Part shown: piece by piece, positions 19,241 through 51,905 of the stretch
Numbering within the stretch: position 1 is the first letter of the stretch
Layout of the letters: every line of letters begins with the position of its first letter
Origin: Candidatus Ozemibacter sibiricus
GTDB taxonomy: Bacteria > Muiribacteriota > Ozemobacteria > Ozemobacterales > Ozemobacteraceae
Length of the DNA stretch: 64,000 nucleotides
Reading direction: 5' to 3'
Assembly (NCBI GenBank): GCA_003327425.1
Contig: QOQW01000010.1
Location: 62,001-126,000 of the forward strand
Position numbers and translations under genes: made by a program
Notes under the pieces: generated by a model
What the model was told of the DNA's origin: nothing
What the model saw: only the letters and a program-made list of their open reading frames with translations
Database searches by the model: none

Positions 19241-21838
19241 TTACCGCAAGAGATCGAGCACCCGTTGGGAGGTCACGTTGGCTTGCGCCAGCATGGCGTT
19301 GCTCGATTGCTGGAGCACCTGGAACCTGGTCAGTTCGATGACCTCGCGAGCCATGTCGACGTCGCGGATGCGGGAGTCGGAAGCCGCCATGTTCTGCAGG
19401 GCGACGTTCAGACTGTTGTTCGTATACTCCATCCGGTTCTGGATGGCGCCCAGCTTGGCTCGTTCAGAGGAAATGCGCTGCAGCGCCTTGTCGATCAGCC
19501 CGATCGCCTCTTCCGCCACCCGGATGTTGGTCAGATCGAGGTCTTCGATGCCCAGGGCCCGGCAGTCGGTCCGGATGATGTTCGATTTCGCCGTGTGCCC
19601 TTGGTTTGGGCCGATCTGGAATTGGATGAAGGCATCCCGGATATGCATCGTGAATTTATACTGCCCGGTGCCATTGTCGTAGGTCTGGGGAATGACGCTC
19701 CAGACGCTCCGGATGGTATTGGCCGAATTGGGATCGCCCAGATCAGTGAAAGTGATGGAGCCATTCTCGCCCGGGGTGGTAGCGTAGAATCGCAAGGTCT
19801 GGGTACCCGTTTCGATCTCCACCGCCATCTTGGCCCCGGGCACCTGATTGACCGCATTGTTGTACAAGTTGGCGATGCTGGCCAAGGTGCGGAACGAACC
19901 ACCGGTCGCCGGATCGCCGGCGGCCACCGTCAGCGAAACGGCAGTGCCGTTTTCATCGACCGTCAAGAAGTGCAGGTCATCGGTCGGACTGGTCCCGCCG
20001 ACCACGTAGCCGAAGTTGGTCTTGGTCTGATCGTAGGCGAAATTCTGGATGACGGGAGAACCATTCACGGCGGCAATGGCTTGCCCATTGTACAGGCGGA
20101 TATCAGTCAGAGGTGCACCCAAGCCGAGATCGACAATGCTGAATCCTGAGTAGATACCGGTTTCGAGAGATTGCAGCTGCAAGACCCCGCCGACGTCATA
20201 GGCTTTGATCAAAAGCCCGCCCATCTGCAGATTGATGGCTTCGGCGATCGATTTGACCCCGCCCGCCGAGTAGTTGGCGTTGAGGGTGATGTTGATGATG
20301 TTGGTCGGATCGTGCCGATCAGCGATGGCGAACCCCAGGTTGTTGACGCTGAAGTCGAACACGCTGACGACGCCCAGCCCCTTCAGGGTGCCTGGCGTTC
20401 CGCCGCTGCCCGTGTACCGTCCGGTGGCAATGCCCAGTTCGGTCGACCCGGTGTAGTTGGCGATGCTGACGTAGGCCGAACTGCCCGTGTTGGTGGTGTA
20501 GAACTCGATGGCATAGGAATCGTTGACCCGGGCCCGCGCGAAGCTGCCGCCGCTGATGAGCGTCGCATTGATGATGGAAGCCACCTGGGACATGGCGAAA
20601 TCGCCACTGGGAATGTTCACGGTGACCGGAACCGCCGATCCGCCGGTGCGCGAGTCGGCCACCGTGAATTGGATGGGCAGGCTGATGCGCACGCCAAGAG
20701 TGGCGGAAGCCGTTCTCGCGTAGGCGTTGGTCGGCGGCTGGAAGACCAGATCGAGCCCCTCGATCAACCCGCTGGCGCGATGGCCCGCGATCTGGGTGTT
20801 GATGATCTTGCGCGAGCCGGGGGGCATCCCCAGATTGACCACCGCGATCGAATAGACCGGATCCACCGGCGCGATGACTTCCTGGAACCCCAGCGCCTTG
20901 ACCAGGCTTTCCTCCCCGGTGAAGTTGACTCGACCGACCTTGCCATTCTTGCCCGAGGTCACGGCCATCTGGCCATTGTTTTCGCCATAGTCGTAGAAGA
21001 TGGCCGACGAGGCCTCGAAATGGAGACCGTTGCCCAGCTGGTCGGTCGTCATGGCGGCCTGGATCCGCTGGGCCAGCTGGTTGAGCGTCAGATCCTTGCT
21101 GACCGTCAGGGCGCCTTGGTGATTATCCCCTTGAATGTACAAGGTCTGCGGCAAGTCGAGGATGAAATACCCGTTCTGGTCGTAGAAATTCGAAATCGAC
21201 TGCAGCGTGGTGCTGCCCGAAGCGATCTGGCCATCGGTGCGGACGAAGATGGCCGAGCGCTGCACCTGGGCGGTCCCCTTCAACTGCCGAGGGCCGTAGG
21301 GGGTCATCTCCTCTTTGGGCATGACCATGACCGAAAAATCAGAGAAGGTGAGGACCGCGCCGGTCACCACCCCATCGAGGTTCTTCGGACTGCTCGTCGA
21401 GACGTTGGCCGTCCCGCTGCCATCCAGCAATTTCTTGGTGTTGAACTCGGTGCCCCAGGAGATGCGGTTGATATCCTCCTTCAGTTGCGCGATCTCTTTC
21501 TGGATCTCGAGGCGATCGGTGGTGGTCAAGGTGTCGTTGGACGCCTGGATCGCCAGTTCCCGCATGCGCTGCAACATGGCATGGATCTCATTGAGGGCCC
21601 CTTCCGCCGTCTGGATGAGGCTGATGCCATCCTGGACGTTCATGATGGCCCGGTTGATGCCCCGGACCTGGGTCCTCAGCTTCTCCGAGATGGTGAGCCC
21701 GGCCGCGTCATCTGCCGCTTTGTTGATGCGAAGCCCCGAGGACAGGCGCTCGATCGAGCCCGACAACCGGCTGTCATTGAACGCCAGGTTCATGTGGGCG
21801 TTGAGGGCGGTGACGTTGGTATTAATGCGCAGGGCCAT
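19241..21838 (-). CDS. flagellin (865 aa)
   Basis: Second filament subunit, longer than its neighbour. The N-terminal D0/D1 region (about 1-165) begins MALRINTNVTALNAHMNLA and contains IERLSSGLRINKAADDAAG. The C-terminal region has ERAKLGAIQNRMEYTNNSL and SDSRIRDVDMAREVIELTR, ending DLLR. About 600 central residues form outer domains. The region is beta-rich, with many Thr, Ser, Gly and Asn. It parallels the 750-aa flagellin in part (FYDQNGYFILDLPQTL against FYDNNGQFILATPKTL), so the two are paralogues. GGAGG lies 6 nt before the ATG. The gene has its own terminator and follows csrA. Whether both are used together or under different conditions is not visible. Confidence 0.95.
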   Translation of the reverse strand: MALRINTNVTALNAHMNLAFNDSRLSGSIERLSSGLRINKAADDAAGLTISEKLRTQVRGINRAIMNVQDGISLIQTAEGALNEIHAMLQRMRELAIQASNDTLTTTDRLEIQKEIAQLKEDINRISWGTEFNTKKLLDGSGTANVSTSSPKNLDGVVTGAVLTFSDFSVMVMPKEEMTPYGPRQLKGTAQVQRSAIFVRTDGQIASGSTTLQSISNFYDQNGYFILDLPQTLYIQGDNHQGALTVSKDLTLNQLAQRIQAAMTTDQLGNGLHFEASSAIFYDYGENNGQMAVTSGKNGKVGRVNFTGEESLVKALGFQEVIAPVDPVYSIAVVNLGMPPGSRKIINTQIAGHRASGLIEGLDLVFQPPTNAYARTASATLGVRISLPIQFTVADSRTGGSAVPVTVNIPSGDFAMSQVASIINATLISGGSFARARVNDSYAIEFYTTNTGSSAYVSIANYTGSTELGIATGRYTGSGGTPGTLKGLGVVSVFDFSVNNLGFAIADRHDPTNIINITLNANYSAGGVKSIAEAINLQMGGLLIKAYDVGGVLQLQSLETGIYSGFSIVDLGLGAPLTDIRLYNGQAIAAVNGSPVIQNFAYDQTKTNFGYVVGGTSPTDDLHFLTVDENGTAVSLTVAAGDPATGGSFRTLASIANLYNNAVNQVPGAKMAVEIETGTQTLRFYATTPGENGSITFTDLGDPNSANTIRSVWSVIPQTYDNGTGQYKFTMHIRDAFIQFQIGPNQGHTAKSNIIRTDCRALGIEDLDLTNIRVAEEAIGLIDKALQRISSERAKLGAIQNRMEYTNNSLNVALQNMAASDSRIRDVDMAREVIELTRFQVLQQSSNAMLAQANVTSQRVLDLLR

Positions 21839-21857
21839 GGTTTGCCTCCATACGTAT

Positions 21858-21899
21858 CAGGGTGACTTATCTCTCCTTATGTGGGGCTTATTCACCCTG
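21858..21899 (-). promoter_or_regulatory. leader hairpin with GGA loop before flagellin 1
   Basis: CAGGGTGA and TCACCCTG (8-bp perfect inverted repeat) enclose a loop with AUAAGGAGAG, and a second GGA lies in the ribosome site GUAUGGAGG 5 nt beyond the stem. Two GGA sites, one overlapping the ribosome site, is the layout of the Bacillus hag leader bound by CsrA. CsrA binding here is inferred. Confidence 0.5.
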
Positions 21900-21909
21900 T
21901 CCTAATATC

Positions 21910-21938
21910 CCATCGGACTTCGTGGACCTCATCCATTA
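21910..21938 (-). promoter_or_regulatory. weak sigma-28-like promoter candidate for flagellin 1
   Basis: TAAT-N17-TCCGATGG on the minus strand, about 70 nt before the start codon. The -10 keeps CCGAT but the rest and the spacing are off consensus. Low confidence. Confidence 0.28.
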
Positions 21939-22012
21939 GGGCGAATTCCGATGGTTAAATCCGTTTATTAGGTTTTTTCTCGTCGTTCCTTCATTTTTCG
22001 TGCAGTACGGAA

Positions 22013-22264
22013 CTACTTTGACTTTTTCTCCAGATTTTTGAGGATTTCCTGGGGCAGGGCCTTGAGGGCGTCCAGGTTCTTGGTCTTGGCCGCGAGACGA
22101 TTCTCGCGCTGAATCTCTTCGTAGACCTCCCAACGATGGACCTTGACCGACTTGGGAGCGTTGATGCCGATCTTGACCTGGTCTTTCCCGATGTCGACCA
22201 GGACGATCTCGATGTCGTCCCCGATGATGATCTTCTCGTTGATCCGGCGTGTCAGTACCAGCAT
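22013..22264 (-). CDS. csrA: carbon storage regulator / translational regulator CsrA
   Basis: Small dimeric RNA-binding protein that binds GGA loops near ribosome sites and blocks translation. In flagellated bacteria with FliW it represses flagellin. 83 aa. It begins [20 protein letters not shown] and continues [23 protein letters not shown], the complete CsrA fold including the RNA-contacting first strand (LTRR) and the later VHR segment. A 30-residue charged C-terminal extension is longer than in enteric CsrA, a feature of FliW-partnered CsrA. Its start codon overlaps the fliW stop (TGATG). It lies directly upstream of the flagellin genes, whose leaders carry GGA hairpins. Confidence 0.96.
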
Positions 22265-22782
22265 CAGCCCCGGCCCTCCTTCTTCGGAGAGTCGGTCGAG
22301 GCAGGCGCGTCCGCCGGAGGTTGAGCGGCAGCCGCCAGGCGGCGGGCCCGGTCTTCCATGGCAGCCAGGATGCTGGTTTTCAGCGAATGAGCGGGATTGT
22401 TCGAGATGATCTGGCGGCCGCGTCGTGTCTTGACATTGATCACCAGGGGCCCCTGGAGATTGGCCGTCATGTCGCGAGGGTTGTCGGGAATGGTGACGAT
22501 GGCGTACAGCACGATATCCTCGACGGCTTGCACGCCGAGGAATTCGACATCGGCATCGCTGATTTCGAGATCGTAGGCGAACATGAACTGGAGCGGTTCG
22601 ATGATGACGAACGCCAGGTCGCCCTTGTCGAGGCATTGCAGCCAGCGGAACGGCCCTCCATCCTGGGTATTGAGAATGACGAACCGGTGAGCGTCTTCGA
22701 ATCCCAGGAGCCCTTCGGAAAACTCGACGATCTCCTCTGGGGCGACCTCGATCTCCCCGAAGCGCGTGGTGGTGATCTTCAT
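22264..22782 (-). CDS. fliW: flagellar assembly factor FliW
   Basis: Binds CsrA as an antagonist and flagellin as a partner, coupling flagellin export to flagellin translation. 172 aa. Typical sequence: [21 protein letters not shown], then [33 protein letters not shown] and [21 protein letters not shown], followed by [16 protein letters not shown]. The last 25 residues are a disordered Ala/Pro/Lys tail beyond the usual end. It follows flgL at a 16-nt gap and overlaps csrA by one base, so the two are translated together. Confidence 0.96.
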
Positions 22783-22798
22783 ACCTGACCGTTCTCCG

Positions 22799-25700
22799 CT
22801 ATTTGAGGAATTCCATCAGCGTGGTCTGCATGATCTGGGCCCCGCTTTGCAGGGCTGCCCGGAAGGCAGTCTCGAGCATGGTCATCCGCGTGATGGCTTC
22901 CGTCATATCAACATTTTCGACCACATCAAGCAGTTTATTTAGATGCAAATTGATGTTGTCGCGTTTTTCCTGCGCGGCCGTGGCCCGATTCGTCTTGACG
23001 CCGACCTCGGCATGGAATTTCAAGACCCGCTCGATATCCTCCTGGATGAACTTGATGCTCTGCTCCGAAATGGCTTTGGCATCATTGCGCAGCAGGTTGT
23101 CCCGCAGATCGGCCAGGGTCGAGAAGATGCTGCGCGAGCCGCCCAGACCGAGCGCCGAGGCCGGCGCCGGCTCGCCGGGTTCCAGTTCCCTGACCTTGAT
23201 GAAGGGCTGATCTTTCGTGTTGGTCAGGTTCAACCGCTTGCCGTCGGGGTTGATCCAGGCCGCGAGGTTGAACCGGTAATCGCTCCGCGAGAACCGATCG
23301 AGCAGCTCCCCGATCGTCTTGACACCGGTCAGATCGATCTCGCCAGAAAATTCGCCGCTCTGCACGAACACCTTGCCCAGGGGCACCCCGCCCTCATTGA
23401 CCCGCAACGCCGAAATGCGGGTCGAATCGCGCAACCCGGGATCGACATCCCGGCCGATCAACCGGGTATCGAGCGTCCAGCCCGCGATGCCCAGGTCGGC
23501 CGCGGTCGTCGAGTCGACGTCGATGATCTCGAGCCTGCCCGTCGCCCCGTGATTCTTGTCGATGATCTCCAGGCCGTTGCGGGCGGCATTGATGCGGGCT
23601 TCGATGTACAGTCCGTTCCCCGGATCATTGAGCCGTTGCAGCACATCGTCGATGGTCACGCACCCCCGCAGATCGATGGCCTTGAAATGCCCTGCCTTGT
23701 CGGTGATGCGGATGGTACCGAGATTCACGCCTTGATTCGCGGTCCGGCTGCAGTTGAGGGCGGCCAGCTCGGTATCGCCTTCGACGGCCGGGTTCAGATC
23801 GATCCCCCCGATGAGGGTGGGCAGCGCCTTCAGAAAGATCGGCGCTCCGGTGATGGTGCCTTTGGCGAAGCGGCTGGCCCCGACGATGAACCCCAGGTCG
23901 CGCGCGGTATTGGTCTGTTCTTCGATCTGCAGCCCCGGCGCTCCGGCCGCGCTGCGGACGACGAACCGGTTGTTGACCTCGTCGAACGTCGCCTGGAACT
24001 TCTCGAGCGCGTTGATCCGGTCGAGCACATCCTGGATGGTTCTCGCCCCCGTCAGATCGACCGGCACCGGCTGGCCATCGGCCCCGCGGATGGTGATCAG
24101 GGCCGGTTCGGGGGGCGGGTTGAGATCGGCCAGGAGCGAAGCGGTGGTCAGCCCTGGCGGTTGCAGCGATTCCCCGATCAGGGTCGAGCCCTGAGTGGAT
24201 CCGAGCAAGCCGAGCCGCCGCGCCATGGTGGTGATGTCGCGCACGGCGATCGGCTCCCCGTCGGGGAGGCCGCTGATGGCGAACGATTTGCCGGCCACCG
24301 GGGTGGTGTTGTCGATGACCACGATACGGTTGTTGGGCGCATCGAATGAGGCGGTCTGCCGGCCGCCGGTGCCCAGATTGATGGCATCGATGACATCCTG
24401 CACGGTGACCGCCGCCGACAGGTCGAGGCGGGAGTTGATGCCGTCGCGACCCGTGATGTTGATCACGCCCAGATGCACACCCTGGCCGCCCTTCAGCGCC
24501 GACAGGGGCGTGCCCAGACCGGTCATCTGCGGATCGCTGAACCCGTTGATGATGTTGGTCGAACCGGCGTCCTGCCACAACCCGAGGTCGGCCGCCGTAT
24601 CCAGGCGGCCATTCACCTCGCGGATCTGGAAATGCACCCCCGGCACCGGCGTCGTGTTGTCGGTGATGACCATCCGCTTGGTCGCGGTGTCGAAGGTCGC
24701 CGTCTGGCGGCCGCCGGTGTCGTTGTTGATGGCGTCGATGACATCTTTGATGGTGATGGCGTTGCGCAGATCGACGATGACCGACACCCCGTCGCTGCCC
24801 GTGATGCTGAGGAACCCCTTCTCGACCCCCTTCCCGCCGTTGAGCGCGCTCAGCGGCGTGGTCTCGGCCTGAATGACGGGATCGAACGTGGAGATGATGG
24901 TGGTACCGGGCCAGGCGTCCTTCAACAGGCCCAGATCGGCCGCGGTGTGTGCCGGCAGGTCTTTGATATACAGCTGATTCTTCTTCGAAGACACCGTGAA
25001 TTCGCCGGTACCGCCGGTCTTGTCGGTGATCTCGAGCCGTCGATGGATCATGTCGTATTTCGCTTCGAGGGCGGTTCCCCCATCGACAGCATTGATCCGG
25101 TTGATGACATCCTGGACGGTGACGGCGTCGGTGAGATCGATGCGACGGTTGAGGCCATCGCGCGTATTGATGCTGAGGAAGCCGAGATCGACCCCGCGCC
25201 CGCCGTTGAGACGCGACAACGGAACGTTGACCCCATCCATGGCCGGGTCGGACAGCCCGACCAGCACGTTGGTCCGTCCGGCGCTGCGATAGATGCCCAG
25301 GTCGACCGCCGTATTGGACGGCACCTCTTCGATGCCGGCCTCGAACGAGCCAGTGCGGCCGATCTGATGGAGCACATCATCCAGGCGATGGGCGTAGGTC
25401 AGGTCGATCCGGTGGTCGATGCCGTTGGCGTCGGTGATGATGATGATCCCAGGCTGCACGCCTTTCCCGCCATTGAGCATGGCCAGGGGGAGGTTGCCAT
25501 TGAGCGGCGGCATGGCCGTGCTGAAGGACGGCTGGGGCACGATGGGTTGGCCGCGGAAGAACAGTTCGGCGCCCGTGATGTTCTTGGTCAGCAGCACCCC
25601 CTTCTCGATCTCGGTGGCCATTTTCTTGTTGTCACCGGCATAGATGACATCGAGCACGTGCTGCAGGTTCAACGCCGGCCGGGTGGTGCCATCGGGGAAC

Positions 25701-26185
25701 GTCACCACGTTGGCCATGCTGCCCGGCGTCAAGCCGTTCAGGGTCTTGATCGGCTTGGTCTTGACGTCATGGCCGGCGAACAGGTACTCCCCGCCGATAT
25801 CGGTGTTGGCGATGTCGACCACGTGCAGGAGCAGTTGCTCGACTTCCTTGGCGATGGCGTCGCGATCGGCCTGGACGAGAGTATCGTTGGCGCCCTGCAC
25901 CGCCAGTTCCCGCACCCGTTGCAAGGTGGCCTCGAGGTCGGTGAGCACCGCATCGGTGTTGTCGAGCCATTCCTTGGTGCGGGCGATGTTGCGAGCATAC
26001 TGAGAGCCTTCGAGCAGCTCGGTGCGATGCTGCATGGTGAGCGCGTTGTTGATGGGGTTTTCGGAAGGGCGCTGGATCTGCTTGCCCGAACTCACCTGGA
26101 TCTGCGTTTTGTTCAGCTCGGCGTGATTGCGATTCAGCACACGCAGGAAGGAGTTGACCACCCATTGGTTCGACACGCGCATCAT
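22799..26185 (-). CDS. flgL: hook-filament junction protein FlgL, greatly enlarged
   Basis: Second junction protein between hook and filament. 1128 aa against the usual 300-500. The N-terminal flagellin-like part (1-150) has VSSGKQIQRPSENPINNALT and LQRVRELAVQGANDTL. The C-terminal helix region (about 1015-1128) has NINLHLNKLLDVVENVDMTEAITRMTM. In between lie seven Flagellin_IN-type modules starting near 237, 326, 448, 564, 687, 810 and 926. Each has LNGGxGV, a strand such as GxIxITDxxG, an IDL strand and a TIxDVIDAIN helix. Spacing is about 90-125 residues. AGGAGG precedes tandem ATG codons. It lies in the flgM-flgN-flgK-flgL-fliW-csrA run. Confidence 0.93.
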   Translation of the reverse strand: MMRVSNQWVVNSFLRVLNRNHAELNKTQIQVSSGKQIQRPSENPINNALTMQHRTELLEGSQYARNIARTKEWLDNTDAVLTDLEATLQRVRELAVQGANDTLVQADRDAIAKEVEQLLLHVVDIANTDIGGEYLFAGHDVKTKPIKTLNGLTPGSMANVVTFPDGTTRPALNLQHVLDVIYAGDNKKMATEIEKGVLLTKNITGAELFFRGQPIVPQPSFSTAMPPLNGNLPLAMLNGGKGVQPGIIIITDANGIDHRIDLTYAHRLDDVLHQIGRTGSFEAGIEEVPSNTAVDLGIYRSAGRTNVLVGLSDPAMDGVNVPLSRLNGGRGVDLGFLSINTRDGLNRRIDLTDAVTVQDVINRINAVDGGTALEAKYDMIHRRLEITDKTGGTGEFTVSSKKNQLYIKDLPAHTAADLGLLKDAWPGTTIISTFDPVIQAETTPLSALNGGKGVEKGFLSITGSDGVSVIVDLRNAITIKDVIDAINNDTGGRQTATFDTATKRMVITDNTTPVPGVHFQIREVNGRLDTAADLGLWQDAGSTNIINGFSDPQMTGLGTPLSALKGGQGVHLGVINITGRDGINSRLDLSAAVTVQDVIDAINLGTGGRQTASFDAPNNRIVVIDNTTPVAGKSFAISGLPDGEPIAVRDITTMARRLGLLGSTQGSTLIGESLQPPGLTTASLLADLNPPPEPALITIRGADGQPVPVDLTGARTIQDVLDRINALEKFQATFDEVNNRFVVRSAAGAPGLQIEEQTNTARDLGFIVGASRFAKGTITGAPIFLKALPTLIGGIDLNPAVEGDTELAALNCSRTANQGVNLGTIRITDKAGHFKAIDLRGCVTIDDVLQRLNDPGNGLYIEARINAARNGLEIIDKNHGATGRLEIIDVDSTTAADLGIAGWTLDTRLIGRDVDPGLRDSTRISALRVNEGGVPLGKVFVQSGEFSGEIDLTGVKTIGELLDRFSRSDYRFNLAAWINPDGKRLNLTNTKDQPFIKVRELEPGEPAPASALGLGGSRSIFSTLADLRDNLLRNDAKAISEQSIKFIQEDIERVLKFHAEVGVKTNRATAAQEKRDNINLHLNKLLDVVENVDMTEAITRMTMLETAFRAALQSGAQIMQTTLMEFLK

Positions 26186-26251
26186 ATCGGTTGCCTCCTG
26201 GACTGCCGCGGGTCTGGATCGCGGTCAGCCTGTCGGATCGGATCAGAGAGC

Positions 26252-28252
26252 TCAGATCATGCCGTTGATGATCTTGTCGAGCATGGCATCGACCGTCGAA
26301 ATGGCTTTGGCGGCCGCGTTGTAGGCATGCTGGAATTTGAGGAGGTTGGCCAGTTCTTCATCGAGCGAGACTCCCGACAGTTCCTGGCGCTTGGCATCGA
26401 GCTGCACCATCAGATCATTGCGGTAGGTATATTGGCGCTCGTAGGTCTGGCTCTTGGTGGCCGCCTCGGTGATGATGGCATTGTAGAATTCGTTGAAGTT
26501 GGCCTTCCCGCCATTGAACCAGGGCTGATGCTTGATCTGGGCGATCCGGATGGCGTTGGCCCCGTCGCCATCGCCGTTGTACGAGGGCAGCCGGTCGGTC
26601 GGACTCTCGAGGGTGCCGCCGGCCGCCGCGATGGTGTTGACATCGGCCACGATGTGGTCCATCAAGGCGAAGTTCCTGGCCGCATCTTTGAAGGGGCGGT
26701 TGACATCATCGCTGGTCAGCGGTTGGAAGAAATTGCGTCCCGTCTGCCCATCGAGCCCGAAGCCCTGCCGGTGCACCGCGTTGACCTCGGCCACCAGGCG
26801 CCAGGCCATCTCGTCGAGCTTGTCGCGCAGGCTGTTGAGATCGCCGTCCCGCACCTGGAGCAGGCCCTTGATCTTGCCGCCCAGCACGATCGGCCGCAGG
26901 TCGAGCTGCGCCACCCCCGGGCTTCTGAGCTCCAGAATGACGCCGGGGATGGCGTCGCGCACCACATTGGCCGCCGACACATAGCGGGTCCCGCCCACGG
27001 TGAAGATGGCATCGCGCGCCGCCACCTTGGTCTGCAGATTGAGCACGGTGAACAGGTTGCTGGTACCGTTGGCATAGGTCATGGCGTGGGCCGTGCCTGT
27101 CTGGGTCGAGGTCAGCACCAGCTTGCCCCCCTCGTTGACCTGCGCCTGCACATTCAGGTTGGCCGTGTTGAGCATGGCGGCCAGGCCGGCCATCGTGGTG
27201 TGCTCGGCATCGAGGTAGAACTGGCGCCCGTTGATGACGAAGGTGCCGCTGGTCACCCCGAAGTCTGACAGGGGGCCGGTAACCGGGAAGAATGACAGGA
27301 ACGATTCGGTCTGATGAGCCTGCGCCGTCTGCTCGACTCCCAGGGTCAGGTTCCGTTGCATGGCGGTATGCGAGATGACGGCCGAGGCCACCTCGGGTTT
27401 GTTCGACATCTCCGGGTAGGCCCCTTCCACACTGATCGTGTTGGGCAGTCCAGCCTCTTTCTGGACGATGTTCAGATGGAACGCGAAACTGTGGTCGACC
27501 AGCAGCTCGTGGCCGGCCCGCAGACGCAGGTGGCCCTTGCTGTCCCAGTCGGTGTCGACCTTGATCAGCTTCGACAGTTCTTCGATCAGCGATTGCCGGC
27601 GATCGCGCAGATCATTGGCCCGGCCCTGCCCCAGCTCGGCCGTCTCGATCTCGACATTGACCGCGGCGATCTGGGAGATCAGGTTGTTGGCCTGGGTGAC
27701 CGCATCGGCCAACTGGTTCTCGATGCTGCCCTGGTAGGCATGGTCGGGCACGCCCTGCAACCGCCGCAAGCGCAGGTCGACATCCCGGAAGAAGGCGGCC
27801 AGATTCTGCGCGTTCTCGACGAGATTGGTGCGCAGTTCGGCACGGGAGGGACTGACCGAGAGGTCTTCCCAGGCGGCCCAGAACTTGTCGAGCATGTCGC
27901 GCACGGTGGCCTCGTTGGGCTCGTTGAAGATGGCCTCGACCTCTTTCAACAGGTCATTGGCCGCTTGGAACTCCTTCAACGACGAGTACTCGCGAACGAT
28001 CTTCTCGTCGATAAACATGTCGCGCAGATGCTCGATCTTGGTGACCTCGACGCCTGTTCCCAGCTGCTGGCCGGTGACGGGAGCGTTGAAGGAAGGGATG
28101 CACCAGGGGTCGGTGGCCGAGAGAACGGCCCGCTGTCGGGCGTAGCCTTCGGTATTGGCGTTGGCGATGTTGTGGGACGTGACGTCCATCGCCGCGCGCT
28201 GGGCCAGGATCGCCCGTTTCCCCAGCTCGAGGCCAAAGAATGTTGCCCGCAT
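26252..28252 (-). CDS. flgK: hook-filament junction protein FlgK
   Basis: First junction protein at the hook tip, exported with chaperone FlgN. 666 aa, somewhat longer than common (about 450-600). The N-terminal rod/hook motif is clear (AMDVTSHNIANANTEGYARQ, residues about 22-41), as is the C-terminal DEELANLLKFQHAYNAAAKAISTVDAML. A Flagellin_IN-like segment lies in the middle (GVTSGTFVINGRQFYLD and TMAGLAAMLN, near 335-375). GAGGAGG precedes the ATG. A sigma-28-type promoter and a GGA hairpin are found upstream. flgL follows 66 nt downstream. Confidence 0.95.
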   Translation of the reverse strand: MRATFFGLELGKRAILAQRAAMDVTSHNIANANTEGYARQRAVLSATDPWCIPSFNAPVTGQQLGTGVEVTKIEHLRDMFIDEKIVREYSSLKEFQAANDLLKEVEAIFNEPNEATVRDMLDKFWAAWEDLSVSPSRAELRTNLVENAQNLAAFFRDVDLRLRRLQGVPDHAYQGSIENQLADAVTQANNLISQIAAVNVEIETAELGQGRANDLRDRRQSLIEELSKLIKVDTDWDSKGHLRLRAGHELLVDHSFAFHLNIVQKEAGLPNTISVEGAYPEMSNKPEVASAVISHTAMQRNLTLGVEQTAQAHQTESFLSFFPVTGPLSDFGVTSGTFVINGRQFYLDAEHTTMAGLAAMLNTANLNVQAQVNEGGKLVLTSTQTGTAHAMTYANGTSNLFTVLNLQTKVAARDAIFTVGGTRYVSAANVVRDAIPGVILELRSPGVAQLDLRPIVLGGKIKGLLQVRDGDLNSLRDKLDEMAWRLVAEVNAVHRQGFGLDGQTGRNFFQPLTSDDVNRPFKDAARNFALMDHIVADVNTIAAAGGTLESPTDRLPSYNGDGDGANAIRIAQIKHQPWFNGGKANFNEFYNAIITEAATKSQTYERQYTYRNDLMVQLDAKRQELSGVSLDEELANLLKFQHAYNAAAKAISTVDAMLDKIINGMI

Positions 28253-28293: not shown

Positions 28294-28329
28294 TGCGCCC
28301 GGGAAACGTCCTTTTTTCCCCTATAATCT

Positions 28330-28357
28330 GTATCGGCTCACGATTCCGAAGACCTTA
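28330..28357 (-). promoter_or_regulatory. sigma-28-type promoter of flgK-flgL
   Basis: TAAG-N16-GCCGATAC on the minus strand, close to the flagellar sigma-28 consensus TAAA-N15-GCCGATAA. It lies about 78 nt before the flgK start, in a 248-bp gap after flgN. Confidence 0.65.
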
Positions 28358-39424: not shown

Positions 39425-41671
39425 ATGGGTCTGTACAGGTGGTTGCTGATCGTCGCCGTGATGGTTGGTCCGCTCTGGCCCGCACCGGTCGGGGCGCAAC
39501 CGGCGGCTTCCACGAGCGAGGGGGCTGGCGAGACCCGCATCGACCGCCTGCTCGAGCGGATGACCCTCGACGAGAAGATCGGCCAGATGACCCTGTTCAC
39601 CAGCACCTGGGCGCAGACCGGGCCCACCATGGACCCCGCCTATCTCGATCATGTGCGGGCCGGACGATGCGGAGCCATCTTCAACGCGATGACCGCCAGC
39701 TATACCCGGTGGCTGCAACGGATCGCCGTCGAGGAGACCCGCCTGGGCATTCCGCTGCTGTTCGGCTATGATGTGATCCACGGCCATCGGACCATCTTCC
39801 CCATTCCCCTGGCCGAATCCTGCTCCTGGGACCTGGCCGCCATCGAGCAGTCGGCCCGGATCGCCGCCATCGAGGCGGCGGCCGAAGGCATCCACTGGAC
39901 TTTCGCCCCGATGGTCGATATCGCCCGCGACCCTCGCTGGGGGCGCATCGCCGAAGGCGCCGGCGAAGATGTCTGGCTGGCCTGCCGGATCGCCGAAGCC
40001 CGGGTACGTGGCTTCCAGGGCACCGACCTGCGGCGCCCCGACACCATCGCGGCCTGCGCCAAGCATTTCGCCGCCTACGGGGCGGCCCAGGCCGGCCGCG
40101 ACTACCATACCGCCGATGTGTCCGAGCGCACGCTCGAAGAGGTCTACCTGCCGCCCTTCGAGGCCTGTGTCAAAGCGGGGGTGCGCACCGTCATGACCGC
40201 CTTCAACGAGATCGCCGGGCATCCTTGCACGGCTCATCCGTATCTGTTGAGCGACCTGCTGCGCGGGCGCTGGGGCTTCACCGGCATGGTCGTCTCCGAC
40301 TATACCGCGATCAACGAGCTGGTACCGCATGGCTATGCCGCCGACGAGGCCGAGGCCGGCCGCCGCGCCGTGCTCGCCGGGGTCGACATGGACATGCAGG
40401 GCGCCGTCTTCCTCACCCATCTGCGTCGTCAGGTCGAACGGGGCGAGGTGCCCATGGCCCGCCTCGATGAGGCCGTCCGCCGGATTCTCACGCTGAAGGA
40501 GGAGCTGGGGTTGTTCGATGACCCCTACCGGTACTGCGATGAGGCGAGAGAGAAGCGGGTGGTCTTCTCGGCCCGACACCAGGCGGCAGCGCGCGCCATG
40601 GCCCGACGATCGATGGTGCTGCTCAAGAATGACGGCGGGGTGCTGCCTCTGCGCCCGAACCTGCGCTCGCTGGCTGTCATCGGGCCGCTGGCCGAGGCCA
40701 CCGTCGATCTGCTGGGCAACTGGCATGCGGCCGGCGATGGCAGCAAGGTCGTCTCGATTCTGCAGGCGGTGCGCGAACGGGTCGGCCCGGGCTGTCAGGT
40801 GCGATTCGCCAAAGGATGCGAGGTCGAAGGGCACGACCGTTCCGGGTTCCGCGCCGCTCTCGCCGCCGCCCGCGACGCCGAGGCGGTGCTGCTCGTGCTG
40901 GGCGAGCGCGAGAACATGAGCGGGGAAGCGGCCTCGCGCGTCGATATCGACCTGCCCGGCGTGCAGAACGAGCTGGCCGAGGCCATCGCCCGCCTGGGAC
41001 GGCCGACCGCCGCCGTGCTGTTGAACGGCCGGCCGCTCGCTCTGACCCGGCTGCACGCCGCGGTGCCGGCCATCCTCGAAGCGTGGTTCCCCGGCTCGCT
41101 GGGCGGCCGGGCCGTCGCCGATGTCGTCTTCGGCGACCATGCGCCCTCGGGCAAGCTGACCGTCACCTTCCCCCGACACGTCGGGCAGATTCCCATCTAT
41201 TACAGCATGAAGAACACAGGGCGGCCGCTGGTCGCCGACCAGAAGTACACCAGCCGCTACCTGGACTGCCCCAACACGCCGCTCTACCCCTTCGGCCACG
41301 GGCTGACCTACACCACCTTCGCCTACTCCGACCTGCAGGTCGAACCGCCCGTCGTCGATGGCGGCAAGAGCGTGACCGTCCGGGTCACCGTGCGCAATAC
41401 CGGCTCCCGTGAGGGCGAAGAGGTCGTCCAGTGCTACCTGCGCGACCTCGCCGCCTCGGTCACCCGTCCGGTCAAGGAACTGCGAGGCTTCCGCCGCCTG
41501 CGGCTCGCCCCCGGCGCCAGCGCCACCATCGAATTCACCTTGGGGGCTGGCGATCTCTCCTTCCGCCGCGCCGACGGCACCTGGGGCTGGGAACCCGGCG
41601 AGTTCAGGGTCATGGTCGGCGGCAGTTCCGATCTCACGCTCGAAGGATCTTTTCACATACGCGACAACTGA
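39425..41671 (+). CDS. secreted glycoside hydrolase family 3 beta-glucosidase-like enzyme
   Basis: Hydrolyses terminal beta-linked glucose or xylose residues in the periplasm or outside the cell. 748 aa from the ATG at 39425, which has GGAGGG 6 nt upstream and starts a signal peptide (LLIVAVMVGPLWPAPVGA). GH3 architecture: TIM-barrel domain (about 35-360) with KHFAAYGA and the nucleophile Asp 292 in MVVSDYTAINEL (most relatives have SDW). A second domain carries the acid/base (about 400-620, LLKNDGGVLPLRP and GERENMSGEAASR). A C-terminal fibronectin-type III-like domain follows (about 650-740, VRVTVRNTGSREGEEVVQCYL). It lies directly upstream of the glycosyltransferase gene, 2 nt apart, so the two are co-transcribed. 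Confidence 0.93.
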   Translation: MGLYRWLLIVAVMVGPLWPAPVGAQPAASTSEGAGETRIDRLLERMTLDEKIGQMTLFTSTWAQTGPTMDPAYLDHVRAGRCGAIFNAMTASYTRWLQRIAVEETRLGIPLLFGYDVIHGHRTIFPIPLAESCSWDLAAIEQSARIAAIEAAAEGIHWTFAPMVDIARDPRWGRIAEGAGEDVWLACRIAEARVRGFQGTDLRRPDTIAACAKHFAAYGAAQAGRDYHTADVSERTLEEVYLPPFEACVKAGVRTVMTAFNEIAGHPCTAHPYLLSDLLRGRWGFTGMVVSDYTAINELVPHGYAADEAEAGRRAVLAGVDMDMQGAVFLTHLRRQVERGEVPMARLDEAVRRILTLKEELGLFDDPYRYCDEAREKRVVFSARHQAAARAMARRSMVLLKNDGGVLPLRPNLRSLAVIGPLAEATVDLLGNWHAAGDGSKVVSILQAVRERVGPGCQVRFAKGCEVEGHDRSGFRAALAAARDAEAVLLVLGERENMSGEAASRVDIDLPGVQNELAEAIARLGRPTAAVLLNGRPLALTRLHAAVPAILEAWFPGSLGGRAVADVVFGDHAPSGKLTVTFPRHVGQIPIYYSMKNTGRPLVADQKYTSRYLDCPNTPLYPFGHGLTYTTFAYSDLQVEPPVVDGGKSVTVRVTVRNTGSREGEEVVQCYLRDLAASVTRPVKELRGFRRLRLAPGASATIEFTLGAGDLSFRRADGTWGWEPGEFRVMVGGSSDLTLEGSFHIRDN

Positions 41672-41673
41672 TC

Positions 41674-44451
41674 ATGCCTTTCTCTCCAGACTCCCTTCCA
41701 CCTCTCGATCGCGCCTTGGCCCTGCTGCAGCAGGGCCGTCGCGCCGAAGCGGAACCCTTGTTCCGGCAGGCACTGGCCCTGGAACCAACCAATCTGGCTG
41801 CCGCCTATTCGCTGACGGTGCTTCTGCTGCAGCTCGATCGCCTCGAGGAGGCTCTCGAACAAGCCCAGATCGGAACCAGGAACCATCCCACATGTGCTCC
41901 GCTCTGGCATGTCCTCGGCCAGATCTGGCAACGGCTCGGGCGTCCGACCGATGCCCTGGCGGCCTACGATCAAGCTCTCGTCCATGACCCCACCTGCGTC
42001 GATGTGCTGATCAACAGCAGTGCGTTGCTCCATGAACAACGACAGTACAAAGAAGCTCTGTTGCGATTGCATCGGGCCGTAGAGGCTGATCCCTCACGCG
42101 ATCTCGCCTGGGCCAATTACGGCATTCTGCTGTCAGAATTCAAACAGACCTTGCATGCGATCCATGCCTTCGAGCAATTGGTTCTGCGCAATCCCGACTA
42201 CCCCTTCGGCCTGGGCCTGTTGACCTTCGAGCGCCTCCATCTGTGCGACTGGCGCGATTTTTCCTGGTTGTCGGAACAGATCATCAGCGGCGTCCGAGCC
42301 GGTCGGAAGACCTGCAAAACGTTGGCGTTCATGGCCTTGAGCGACGATGCGGGCGATGTTCGACGCTGCACCGAGATCTATACCGCGCACCAGCACCCGC
42401 ACCGCTTCCCCCCCCTCTGGCGGGGAGAGACCTATTCCCACGCTCGCCTGCGGGTAGCCTACGTTTCTCCCGATTTCCGCGACCACCCCGTGGGACATCT
42501 CCTGGCAGGCGTCCTCGAGGGCCATGATCACACCCGCGTCGAAACCTACGGCATCTCGCTTGGGGAAAACGATGGCAGCCGCCATCATCAACGGATCGTG
42601 GCCGCTTTGGACCATTTTTACGAAGTGCTCGACAAGACCCCAGCCCAGATCGCAGCCTTGATACGCTCTTTGGACATCGACGTGGCCGTCGACCTGGCCG
42701 GCTATACCGCCGGCTCGCGAACCGATATCTTCCTGCACCGCCCAGCTCCTGTCCAGGTGAACTACCTGGGATACGCCGGCACCATGGGGCTGCCGTGCTA
42801 TGATTTCATCCTGGCCGATGCGCAGGTGATCCCCCCCAACGCGCGCCATCACTATTCCGAGCAGGTCTTTGCGTTGCCTCACTGCTATCTTCCCGTGGCC
42901 AGCGGCTGTCCACCGGCTGTGCCGCTCCCGCGGGCCGCCTATGGCTTGCCCGACCAGGCCTTTGTGTTCTGTGCCTTCGGCCACGATTACAAGATCCATC
43001 CCGAGATCTTTCGCATCTGGATGAAGCTGTTGCAAGCCATCCCCGGCAGTGTTCTGTGGCTGATGTCACGGCACGAGACCACCATTGCCAATCTTCGCCA
43101 GGCCGCTCACCACCACCAGATCGATCCCGCTCGGCTGGTCTTCGCCAGCCGGGTGCCCCGCATCGAAGACCATCTCGCGCGCTATCAGGTCGCCGACCTG
43201 TTCCTCGATCCCTGGCCGTATGGCTCCCATACGACCTCGGCCGACGCCCTGATGGTCGGGTTGCCGGTGATCACCTATCAAGGAGGGGCTTTCCATTCGC
43301 GAGTGGCATCGAGCTTGCTGACGACATTGGGCCTTCCCGAACTGATCACCCATTCATTCGAAGAATACTTCACCCTGGCATGCAAACTCGCCAAGGACCG
43401 GAACCGCCTGGCGACCTACCGCCAGCGTCTGCAGGCCATCCATCCGCCCAGCCTCCTGTCAGGAAGACGTTTTGCCGCTTCTCTGGAAGAAGCCTTTGCC
43501 GCCATGCTGGCGGATCGCTTGCCCCGCCACCCTGCTCTGGAACGATTTATGCTGACAGCCAATGCGAGCGGCCCTGCGACATCGTCTTCCCAACCGGCAC
43601 CTGCGTTCATCCTGCCCAGCGAAAACCCCAACCGGCCCGTCGAACATGATTCCCGGGTGTCTCGTTCCTCCCCGCGTCTGGTCATCGTGGTCCCCATTTA
43701 TAAACCCACGCTCAACCTTTTGGAGCAGTTTTCCCTGGACCAGCTGAAGCAAACCGCCCTCCATCGCACGATCACCTTCGTTGGCCCTCGTCATCTCGAT
43801 GTTTCCTACTACCGATTTCGTTATCCCGAATTTGGCATTCGGCTCTACGACGACCGCTATTTTGCATCGATCCAAGGCTACAATCATCTTCTGCTCGACC
43901 CCGATTTTTACGCCGGATTCGACTCGGCCGATTTTGTCCTCATCCATCAAACCGATGCCCTCCTTTTGCACGACGATCTCGATCAATGGATGCACATGGG
44001 ATATGATTACGTCGGCGCGCCATGGCCAGGCGGCCTCGAGATTCTTCTCCAGTTTGGCCGTTACGCCAGGCATGGAGGACTCCAGGTCAAGGCGTATGTG
44101 GGCAACGGCGGCTTCAGCCTGCGTTCCATCCGTGGCACCCGCCATGTCCTGGTCGAACTGGGGGAAATGCGCGACTATTGGATCCGCTCCAACAGCAGTG
44201 AAGATCTTTTCTTCGGCTTTGCCGGCACCATCTCGAACGCCTTCCGCCTCCCCAATCAAATGGTGGCTGCCCGCTTCGCTTTGGAACTGGAACCACAAAA
44301 ATTCTTCGATCTGCATGACGGAACCATCCCCACCGGGTGCCATGCCTGGTGGAAGCATGATCTGGAATTCTGGAAGGGAATCATCATCAAGGTCGCCGAA
44401 AAGCGGGATTCTGCAGGGATTAAGAATCCTGCACCGACGCCAGGGTTCTGA
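41674..44451 (+). CDS. TPR / GT41 (O-GlcNAc-transferase-like) / DUF5672 fusion glycosyltransferase
   Basis: 925 aa with three parts. TPR helices (about 10-185) would recognise protein substrates. A GT41 catalytic region (about 258-615) has SPDFRDHPVGHL (His 271 and His 275), FCAFGHDYKIHPEIF with the conserved Lys 440, and SADALMVGLPVITYQGG with SRVASSLLTTLGLPELI, matching human OGT landmarks. A C-terminal DUF5672 domain (about 668-890) has VIVVPIYKPTLNLLEQF, the IHQTDALLLHDDL acidic motif and GYDYVGAPWPGG, and is itself probably a second glycosyltransferase. A Ser/Pro linker (about 628-665) separates them. The start is 2 nt after the GH3 stop with no ribosome site, so translation is coupled. 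Predicted cytosolic protein or glycan glycosylation. Confidence 0.85.
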   Translation: MPFSPDSLPPLDRALALLQQGRRAEAEPLFRQALALEPTNLAAAYSLTVLLLQLDRLEEALEQAQIGTRNHPTCAPLWHVLGQIWQRLGRPTDALAAYDQALVHDPTCVDVLINSSALLHEQRQYKEALLRLHRAVEADPSRDLAWANYGILLSEFKQTLHAIHAFEQLVLRNPDYPFGLGLLTFERLHLCDWRDFSWLSEQIISGVRAGRKTCKTLAFMALSDDAGDVRRCTEIYTAHQHPHRFPPLWRGETYSHARLRVAYVSPDFRDHPVGHLLAGVLEGHDHTRVETYGISLGENDGSRHHQRIVAALDHFYEVLDKTPAQIAALIRSLDIDVAVDLAGYTAGSRTDIFLHRPAPVQVNYLGYAGTMGLPCYDFILADAQVIPPNARHHYSEQVFALPHCYLPVASGCPPAVPLPRAAYGLPDQAFVFCAFGHDYKIHPEIFRIWMKLLQAIPGSVLWLMSRHETTIANLRQAAHHHQIDPARLVFASRVPRIEDHLARYQVADLFLDPWPYGSHTTSADALMVGLPVITYQGGAFHSRVASSLLTTLGLPELITHSFEEYFTLACKLAKDRNRLATYRQRLQAIHPPSLLSGRRFAASLEEAFAAMLADRLPRHPALERFMLTANASGPATSSSQPAPAFILPSENPNRPVEHDSRVSRSSPRLVIVVPIYKPTLNLLEQFSLDQLKQTALHRTITFVGPRHLDVSYYRFRYPEFGIRLYDDRYFASIQGYNHLLLDPDFYAGFDSADFVLIHQTDALLLHDDLDQWMHMGYDYVGAPWPGGLEILLQFGRYARHGGLQVKAYVGNGGFSLRSIRGTRHVLVELGEMRDYWIRSNSSEDLFFGFAGTISNAFRLPNQMVAARFALELEPQKFFDLHDGTIPTGCHAWWKHDLEFWKGIIIKVAEKRDSAGIKNPAPTPGF

Positions 44452-46908: not shown

Positions 46909-48723
46909 TCAGCCAAGCTCGGCGACCAACCGGGAGAAGTGGGCTTCCAGATGGCGAACAAAACGCGGGGTGTCGAACAGAGCCCCCGATGTGCGCACGT
47001 TTTGGAGATGCGCGCGCATGGACTGGGTTGTCTGAGGGTCATGCGCCAGCGCCACCGCCCGCTCTTCGTAGTCGGCCGTATTCCAGGTGATCAACTCCGG
47101 CAGGCCGGCCGCCCGCAACAAGGCGCCGGCCATCCGCGAGGCGAAGGCACGCCCACTGAGCGTCAACACCGGACAGGCCATCCATAGGGCATCGTTGGCA
47201 GTCGTCCCCGCATTGAAGGGGAACGTGTCGAGGAACAGATCCGCCAGCTGATATCTGGCCAGGTAAGCGGCGGGCGGCACATGGGGGGCGAAGATCAAAC
47301 GATCAGGACAGACGCCGCCAGCGGCGGCGGCCTGGCGAAGATGGATTTCCACCCAGGGGTTGTCGGCATATAACCAGAGCACGCTGCCAGGCACGCGCTG
47401 CAGGATGCGCATCCAGACAGCGAAGAGTTCTGGAGTGATTTTGGTCGGATTGTTGAAGCAGCAGAACACATAACCCTCTGGCGGAAGTCCACATTCTCCG
47501 CGCGTCGGAGCAGGCCCGCCCTGCCGATGACGATCGCTGACCTGGAACACATCGGGCATATACAGAGGTTTCTCGGTAAAATAGGGCGCTAGTTCAGGCG
47601 GCAGCACGAACGCATCGGCGATGACATAGTCGATCCAAGGGAAAGCGGTGGTGGCCGGCAAGCCCAGGTAGGTGATCTGGATCGGCGCCGGACGGTAGGC
47701 CAGCAAGCGCGGTCTGGCTCCCAACGTCTGCCCCTGCAGATCGATCAGAATGTCGATTTCCCGCTCGCGAATCAGGCGAGCGGCCTCTTCGTCGGACAGA
47801 TGCCCGATGGGAACAAAAAAATCCATGGCTTTGACCAAGCGCTGTCGCAAGGGAGAATCGCCCACGGAAGTCCAACAGAAGCCATACACTTCGAAATGGT
47901 CGCGATCATGCAGCTCGAACAATTCGACGGTCAACATCGCCACCGGATGCAGGCAGAAATCCGATGAGCAGTAGCCCACCCGAATCCGGGGGTGATGGTA
48001 CGGAGGAACGGGGGGCAAGGGGGCAGCAAGGGGCGGCACTCGCTGGGCGACATACCGGCGCGCGGCCTCGAGTTGCACCTGCGGATCGTCAGTTAAACTG
48101 AGAAGGGCCAGCACTGAGATGGCTTGCCTGGCGTTGTCGAGATCAAGCCCGGGCAGGGGTGCGACCACCGGCCAGGAACAGGTTTTTTCCCGGAGATAGA
48201 TCCAATGATGGAGCACATCCGCTTGCCTGGGATCCAGCAACAAGCTCCGGGTGAGAGCCTCCACCGCTCGCATCAGGTGTTGTCGGTCTTCCAGCACTCG
48301 CCCCAGATTGTTGAGGGTAGTTTTGTAAATTTCCTGCTGGTCAGTTTCAGGAGGTGGGCCCAGGGCGTCAATCCACTGCCATTCGGCCAAAGCGGCAGGA
48401 ATCTGACCCAGCCGCTCATACGTCAAGCCAAGATTGAAACGAGCCGGAAGGAAATCGGGAGCGATCCGCAAGGCTTGACCATAGGCTTCTCTTGCGCCAG
48501 CCCAATCTCCCTGCGCAAACTGCAGAACGCCGAGATTGTACCAGGCCACATGGGCCATCGCCCCCCCCCCGCGCTGCAGCCAGGTCTGATACAAGAGGCA
48601 AGCCAGCTTGCTCAACCCAGCTTGTTCCAGACTCTGCGCCGCTTGCATCAGAGCTGACAGACTCAATTGCCGATCCCAGGCCTGCTGCAGCCAGACGGGC
48701 AGGTGGGCGACGACGGGTTCCAT
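46909..48723 (-). CDS. TPR / GT41 O-GlcNAc-transferase-like (SPINDLY-type) glycosyltransferase
   Basis: 604 aa. TPR helices cover about 20-175 (WYNLGVLQFAQGDWAGAREAYG, then AAYG-type repeat ARFNLGLTYERLGQIPAAL). The GT41 catalytic region is about 245-600: VGYCSSDFCLHPVAML, IDLQGQTLGARP, FCCFNNPTKITPELFAVW with the conserved Lys, NAGTTANDALWMACPVLTLSG and SRMAGALLRAAGLPELI. All main OGT landmarks are kept, so activity is likely. Family enzymes transfer GlcNAc, fucose or other sugars to Ser/Thr. The start is 68 nt after the octapeptide-repeat gene on the same strand, so the two probably share a transcript. AGGAG abuts the ATG, which is unusually close. The nearby repeat protein is the obvious candidate substrate; flagellin is another. 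Confidence 0.87.
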   Translation of the reverse strand: MEPVVAHLPVWLQQAWDRQLSLSALMQAAQSLEQAGLSKLACLLYQTWLQRGGGAMAHVAWYNLGVLQFAQGDWAGAREAYGQALRIAPDFLPARFNLGLTYERLGQIPAALAEWQWIDALGPPPETDQQEIYKTTLNNLGRVLEDRQHLMRAVEALTRSLLLDPRQADVLHHWIYLREKTCSWPVVAPLPGLDLDNARQAISVLALLSLTDDPQVQLEAARRYVAQRVPPLAAPLPPVPPYHHPRIRVGYCSSDFCLHPVAMLTVELFELHDRDHFEVYGFCWTSVGDSPLRQRLVKAMDFFVPIGHLSDEEAARLIREREIDILIDLQGQTLGARPRLLAYRPAPIQITYLGLPATTAFPWIDYVIADAFVLPPELAPYFTEKPLYMPDVFQVSDRHRQGGPAPTRGECGLPPEGYVFCCFNNPTKITPELFAVWMRILQRVPGSVLWLYADNPWVEIHLRQAAAAGGVCPDRLIFAPHVPPAAYLARYQLADLFLDTFPFNAGTTANDALWMACPVLTLSGRAFASRMAGALLRAAGLPELITWNTADYEERAVALAHDPQTTQSMRAHLQNVRTSGALFDTPRFVRHLEAHFSRLVAELG

Positions 48724-51395: not shown

Positions 51396-51820
51396 ATCAA
51401 TCCCCTTTCCGCGAGCCGAACAACCCGCAGGTGAAATGTTCTCGGGCGAAGGCAGCCACGACGGTGGTTCCCCTTTGTCCATCGACAAAGAAAGCCGCAT
51501 CGACCAGAAGACTCATCCTTAAGTATGCCCATGATCCTCTGGCAAAGACCCTTCCATGGGGTCCATCAGGCCCCTTGATTATCTCTGGGGGAAAAGAAGA
51601 GCGATGTCGGCGCGCGTCCCGATCGTCAAGGGTGGACCGATCAAGAGCCCAGGTCAGATGTTGCCATCCGAGGGGCCTGCTCGCCCATTCGGGGTTTACA
51701 TCCCGAGAGAGGGATTCTCCCTTGGCGGCCGTTGGCATTCGACAATCCATCCTTGGTGACGATAACCAAGCGGGACGTTCAAGCTTGGCTTTGGCGGGCC
51801 TTCCTTTGCCCTCGTTAACT

Positions 51821-51847
51821 TTATCGGCAATTTTTCAGAAAACTTTA
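51821..51847 (-). promoter_or_regulatory. perfect flagellar sigma-28 promoter of the octapeptide-repeat gene
   Basis: On the minus strand TAAAGTTT (51847-51840), an 11-bp spacer and GCCGATAA (51828-51821) match the enteric FliA consensus TAAAGTTT-N11-GCCGATAA at all 16 positions. An A8 tract 14 bp upstream of the -35 could act as an UP element. The next gene in this direction is the octapeptide-repeat protein, about 420 nt downstream. Confidence 0.88.
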
Positions 51848-51905
51848 GAGGGAAATCGCAATTTTTTTTGCCACCTCCCAGACCTGCGGAAAATGCGGTT
51901 CATAG

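Follow-up and report, generated by a model that had tools for sequence, protein, structure and literature searches.

Why would a gene for an octapeptide-repeat protein, positioned outside the flagellar cluster, be preceded by a perfect promoter of the flagellar sigma factor sigma-28 (FliA), and what could its product do? The question is raised by a 64,000-nt stretch of the Candidatus Ozemibacter sibiricus genome (contig QOQW01000010.1; hereafter the window), the minus strand of which holds, from upstream to downstream:

51862-51869, minus strand: A8 tract, UP-element-like, upstream of the -35 box; read directly (T8 on the plus strand)
51840-51847, minus strand: sigma-28 -35 box TAAAGTTT, exact match; 8/8 identical in congener G002
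51821-51828, minus strand: sigma-28 -10 box GCCGATAA, exact match with an 11-nt spacer; 7/8 identical in G002
51796-51811, minus strand: promoter-proximal mini-hairpin GGGC-AAAGGAAG-GCCC, beginning 9 nt after the -10 box
51396-51795, minus strand: remaining 5' leader, ~400 nt, mostly unconserved, with the ribosome-binding site AAAGGGGATTG conserved beside the start codon
48792-51395, minus strand: ALTTAQ octapeptide-repeat protein, 867 aa (PF20080)
46909-48723, minus strand: TPR + GT41 O-GlcNAc-transferase-type protein, 604 aa (PF13844, 4.6e-76)

The sigma-28 promoter and its regulon company

Class 3 promoters recognized by sigma-28 (FliA) in E. coli and Salmonella follow the consensus TAAAGTTT-N11-GCCGATAA. 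An earlier note on this DNA had claimed a perfect minus-strand match with an A8 tract just upstream, and both are present: the promoter at 51821-51847, TAAAGTTT-TCTGAAAAATT-GCCGATAA, agrees with the consensus in spacer length and at 16/16 positions (0 mismatches), and the tract occupies 51862-51869. Like all our regulon scans of the genome, the search for further sites was a pattern search. Throughout the 5.68-Mb genome the site of the ALTTAQ gene is the sole perfect match, next to one site with 1 mismatch, one with 2 and five with 3, while ~5e-5 perfect and 0.005 one-mismatch sites are expected by chance per genome (dinucleotide model, 65% G+C); for the shuffled window, the expectation is 0.03 matches at ≤3 mismatches. 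Since a reversed control pattern gave 14 matches in total at ≤3 mismatches in the whole genome, sites with 3 mismatches, such as C52:29025, were discarded as noise. The site had also been held superior to the promoters of the flagellar cluster here, which is borne out, as the runner-up in the window, upstream of flgK, carries 3 mismatches and a 12-nt spacer.

Conservation is concentrated on the boxes. In G002 (locus L065), the orthologous gene is preceded at the equivalent position by TAAAGTTT-N11-GCCGATAC, with the A8 tract in the equivalent place; 15/16 box positions are identical to the window, as compared to merely 5/11 in the spacer. Identity amounts to 37/48 in the 48 nt downstream of the promoter, 157/315 (50%, with indels) in the remaining leader before rising again at the start codon, and 37/90 in the intergenic stretch farther upstream. 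The promoter is thus kept in the only further congener with an ALTTAQ gene. Congener G001 has neither repeat gene nor promoter, despite retaining the neighbouring PLD gene (83% identical), so that promoter and gene come and go together. As the promoter is retained in the congener, synthesis of the repeat protein probably coincides with that of the flagellum.

The genome also provides the machinery known from class 3 promoters. It encodes a FliA/WhiG-family sigma factor (TIGR02479, 286 bits versus a cut-off of 189.6) related to the solved E. coli FliA (6pmi), as well as an anti-sigma factor of the FlgM family (PF04316, 25.3 bits versus a cut-off of 25). The single one-mismatch site, C14:110114, has the first base of its -35 box 101 nt upstream of this flgM gene and is kept in three congeners as TTAAGTTT, TTAAGTTC and TCAACTTT, each followed by -N11-GCCGATAA. 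With flgM as the second-best site of the genome and FliA present, the sigma-28 consensus is therefore meaningful in this organism. Sequence comparison indicates that the promoter is real and probably functional, and the conserved boxes, together with a promoter-hairpin layout shared with flgM and flgK (see below), make its use by sigma-28 (FliA) very likely.

Congruent with this, placement of the gene in the late flagellar regulon, as the earlier note proposed, is well supported by the conservation in the congener, by flgM as second-best site, by the hairpin in common with flgK and flgM and by the FliA/WhiG sigma factor. The placement does not extend to the other Ozemobacteraceae genera, where the sequences upstream of ALTTAQ genes, as judged by eye, are mostly sigma-70-like, with a weaker sigma-28 candidate on contig 31 of G012 (TAAATTGG-N12-GCCGATAA). 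Control by sigma-28 would hence be a trait of the genus and not of the protein family; on these comparisons the wiring is lineage-specific, and not part of the general function of the gene.

Most flagellin promoters of the family match the E. coli sigma-28 consensus poorly, and de novo inspection recovered conserved GNCGATAN -10 boxes in part of them. Two further conserved arrangements were observed, each in three congeners. TAAACTCC-N12-GTCGATA (L129:5545, L132:7062 and L133:3845) lies 40-43 nt upstream of a gene whose product, of 156-159 aa, likely bears a signal peptide (MKIDRKHLGLIVASFIALSFNSHFAQA...); this gene is one more candidate for control by sigma-28. The second, TAAATGTT-N12-GTCGATA (L130:6761, L131:6224 and L134:6673), lies upstream of a gene for a 43-aa CxxC zinc-ribbon-like protein.

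The repeat protein, its GT41 partner and a proposed role

The product had been described as an unknown protein of 867 aa. The length is correct with a start at 51395 (Met36 of the mechanical open reading frame), where G002 conserves AAAGGGGATTG and the ATG, but the protein has relatives: it is a member of PF20080, the ALTTAQ repeat (E 4.5e-207, 669.9 bits versus a curated cut-off of 26.4). It is devoid of Cys, consists of 26.5% Ser+Thr and displays an octad periodicity as well as a 136-residue super-repeat; reading the N-terminus by eye, no signal peptide is apparent. AlphaFold2, run on residues 1-190 with an alignment of 13 sequences (pLDDT 93), yielded one short helix per octad, and the prediction is accordingly of a long, thin rod built from one-turn octad helices. 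Foldseek with this model returned weak superhelix matches alone (mesothelin, TM 0.37). At the sequence level, PDB entry 9zem (HeliScrew4) matches across 108 residues (E 1.1e-14) and shares the octad pattern, but is apparently artificial, a designed octad-repeat protein to judge from its name and sequence; a limited literature search retrieved no publication on HeliScrew4, nor one naming the ALTTAQ repeat.

Among relatives the N-terminal pattern is conserved (about 50-60% identity in most aligned sequences), and lengths range from 455-460 aa in G002, counted from the start codon, up to about 3770 aa in G007 (L067), where the protein adjoins flagellins. Giant ALTTAQ genes are likewise found in G014, two on contig 44 (3715 and 2019 aa) and one on contig 125 (2427 aa; L068-L070), and ALTTAQ-like proteins are also encoded by IMG/VR contigs classed as viral (L178-L184).

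Contrary to what had been stated, the promoter has a further gene downstream besides the repeat gene, since the TPR-GT41 gene (46909-48723) begins on the same strand 68 bp past the ALTTAQ stop codon; from this arrangement, co-transcription of the two is likely. The encoded enzyme is closest to the Xanthomonas campestris OGT (2jlb, 2e-89), aligned over residues 59-589 and hence the full catalytic region, with a far weaker similarity to the N-linking HMW1C type (about 1e-6). The gene order is identical in G002 and in a gammaproteobacterial MAG (L064), and ALTTAQ genes have a GT41 gene beside them or nearby in G002, G009, G014 and G017 of the family as well as in that MAG. Outside the family this applies to 11/16 scanned loci, a raw count without a background rate from loci that are mainly plasmid records, clade-biased toward Rhizobiaceae and Cereibacter. 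A nearby GT41 gene is absent at L066, L067, L205, L209, L211 and L213. The neighbourhood thus recurs in more than one phylum, and it is moderately probable that the neighbouring GT41 enzyme O-glycosylates the ALTTAQ protein. The recurrent pairing suggests a natural substrate for a class of bacterial OGTs.

A second TPR-GT41 protein of the window (41431-44451, plus strand) is fused to DUF5672 and has methyltransferase genes alongside. It is encoded between the ALTTAQ operon and the flagellar cluster, in what is probably a glycosylation island.

What surrounds the pair differs between lineages. The PF20080 proteins on Pseudomonadota plasmids share the repeat unit, the N-terminal pattern and the GT41 neighbourhood with the protein of the window; in Pseudomonadota, ALTTAQ-GT41 often has type I secretion genes nearby, as on plasmids of Cereibacter, Pseudomonas and Pseudoroseomonas, whereas here there is a sigma-28 promoter and none of the window genes examined is a type I (ABC-HlyD) partner. 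In the own genome, a single HMM for HlyD (TIGR01843) gave no match above the cut-off, with weak sub-threshold matches existing. In Rhodovastum a flagellar cluster sits beside ALTTAQ-GT41, the single such case among the Pseudomonadota loci scanned, and in G007, another Ozemobacteraceae genus, the ALTTAQ gene directly follows flagellin-flagellin-flaG, with a Maf-type (MptE-like) gene on the opposite side of the flagellins. The description of the protein as surface- or filament-like is plausible, as it fits these flagellin loci and the glycosylation and secretion genes of relatives. ALTTAQ proteins are present in more than one phylum under misleading names, with the plasmid-encoded forms annotated as 'heme utilization protein' or 'ICE nucleation protein'.

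Sequence comparison supports the promoter, its conservation, the regulon company, the gene pair and the fold; for transcription, co-transcription, glycosylation, export route, location and function of the unit, we infer the following. RNA polymerase with FliA (sigma-28) would transcribe the ALTTAQ and TPR-GT41 genes late in flagellar assembly, as a unit of the late flagellar regulon alongside flgM and flgK, and the mRNA would start with a small hairpin resembling those of the flgM and flgK mRNAs. The GT41 enzyme would attach an O-linked sugar to the Ser/Thr-rich rod in the cytoplasm, and the product would be exported to the surface of the cell or to its flagellum, where it would serve as a glycoprotein for adhesion or coating. 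Its route, the least certain step, would most likely be the flagellar export apparatus, favoured because no partners for type I secretion turned up; judged from the genomic context, we consider exit by flagellar export a tentative possibility. Taken in full, a late-flagellar, glycosylated and exported ALTTAQ protein with a GT41 partner is the reading that we favour to a moderate degree. A more specific version, in which a glycosylated helical-screw rod leaves via the flagellar apparatus and coats or tips the flagellum, with ALTTAQ-GT41 as a mobile cassette using the available exporter, is rather unlikely; if the pair is served by type I secretion in Pseudomonadota, the cassette would be borrowing whichever exporter is at hand.

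The EtpA/EtpC pair of enterotoxigenic E. coli offers a comparison. EtpC belongs to the GT41/HMW1C type, and EtpA is not known to be under sigma-28 control. EtpA is a secreted adhesin that bridges flagellar ends to host cells, with EtpC as a putative glycosyltransferase (PMC4073130). As in the ALTTAQ locus, a large protein is combined with a dedicated glycosyltransferase and a flagellar connection, a works-like analogy and not a claim of homology, but the ALTTAQ locus comes without a two-partner transporter, with another fold and with an OGT-like rather than an HMW1C-like enzyme.

Alternatively, the protein could remain cytoplasmic and offer, for instance, a scaffold or binding platform to the GT41 enzyme or to flagellin glycosylation, congruent with the missing signal peptide, with a solenoid fold typical for binding scaffolds and with flagellins and a Maf-like (MptE-like) gene in the same region. 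Such a role is nevertheless unlikely, considering that ALTTAQ genes of Pseudomonadota adjoin type I secretion genes and that sizes from 455 to about 3770 aa hint at a repetitive exported product and not a defined scaffold. For the exported glycoprotein favoured here, placing an ALTTAQ protein in the flagellar regulon along with an O-GlcNAc-type transferase of its own supplies a concrete and testable role, that of a flagellar or surface glycoprotein.

The leader, its hairpin and CsrA-type elements

The ALTTAQ mRNA would carry a 5' leader of about 418 nt, with the mini-hairpin just past the predicted transcription start at about 51813-51815, an addition directly downstream of the promoter that sets it, like flgM and flgK of the family, apart from the FliA class 3 promoters. 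The loop AAAGGA contains a CsrA-type AAGGA, and G002 carries GGGC-AAAGGATT-GCCC at the identical offset. The flgK transcript of the window presents GGGAAA-AAAGGACG-TTTCCC at the same offset from its -10 box, and in most other members of the family the flgK leader retains a GGG...CCC hairpin following the GNCGATAN box. Overall the element follows 10/22 GNCGATAN-type boxes upstream of flagellar or ALTTAQ genes, as compared to 3-7% of random 40-mers, a proportion inflated because the test was devised after some sequences had been seen. Genome-wide, the layout CGATA-N6-16-GGGNAAA-N4-13-CCC, itself drawn from the flgM, flgK and ALTTAQ loci, matched 6, 2 and 5 times in three congeners (reversed control 0, 2 and 0), and the only loci common to the genome of the window (G000) and G002 are flgM, flgK and ALTTAQ (reversed control 0 in each). 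As the folding energy of the window copy is unremarkable (z -0.19; G002 copy z -3.1), the case for the hairpin is made by its position and its recurrence. A site for CsrA or for transcript stability is one possible role, with CsrA binding to the AAAGGA loop suggested by the motif.

Such mini-hairpins are also conserved as a GGGGAAA...TTTCCC type in flgK leaders (window about 28300-28340, minus strand; L147-L162) and flgM leaders (L139-L146), and at flgK, flgM and some flagellin genes they start about 7-15 nt past the sigma-28 -10 box, possibly representing a new 5' leader element.

The long leader, the focus of conservation on the promoter and the first ~50-75 nt, the CsrA-type loop and the presence of csrA and fliW within the same flagellar cluster would also fit a real promoter that chiefly yields a regulatory RNA from the 5' leader, for example one titrating CsrA, with the repeat gene expressed mostly from elsewhere. 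This is improbable. No sigma-70-like promoter was found on this strand in 51396-51795, leaving the gene without a second promoter-like site upstream, and the terminator-like site inside the leader (51505-51493) is weak; moreover, a single CsrA-type hairpin is conserved in both genomes, the promoter is present only where the ALTTAQ gene is, and the ribosome-binding site of the gene is conserved. An Rfam search of the leader returned nothing relevant. A 117-aa open reading frame within the leader (51397-51750) was not taken for a gene, as its region shows ~50% identity with indels in the congener. Finally, a promoter match by chance, or a relic without function, is very improbable in the light of the 5e-5 perfect matches expected per genome, the selective conservation of the boxes relative to the spacer and the hairpin layout in common with flgM and flgK.

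The promoter-proximal hairpin on the flgM and flgK transcripts of the family represents a second testable point. The fliW gene (PF02623, 22264-22782) and csrA (domain within 22013-22636) lie in the flagellar cluster between flgL and flagellin. Leaders of Ozemobacteraceae flagellin genes (window 19241-28252, minus strand; L086-L115) harbour two CsrA-type hairpins, GCAAGGATGC and GATTCAAGGAGGAATC, the latter overlying the Shine-Dalgarno sequence, an arrangement that resembles the two CsrA sites of the B. subtilis hag leader (PMC6070490).
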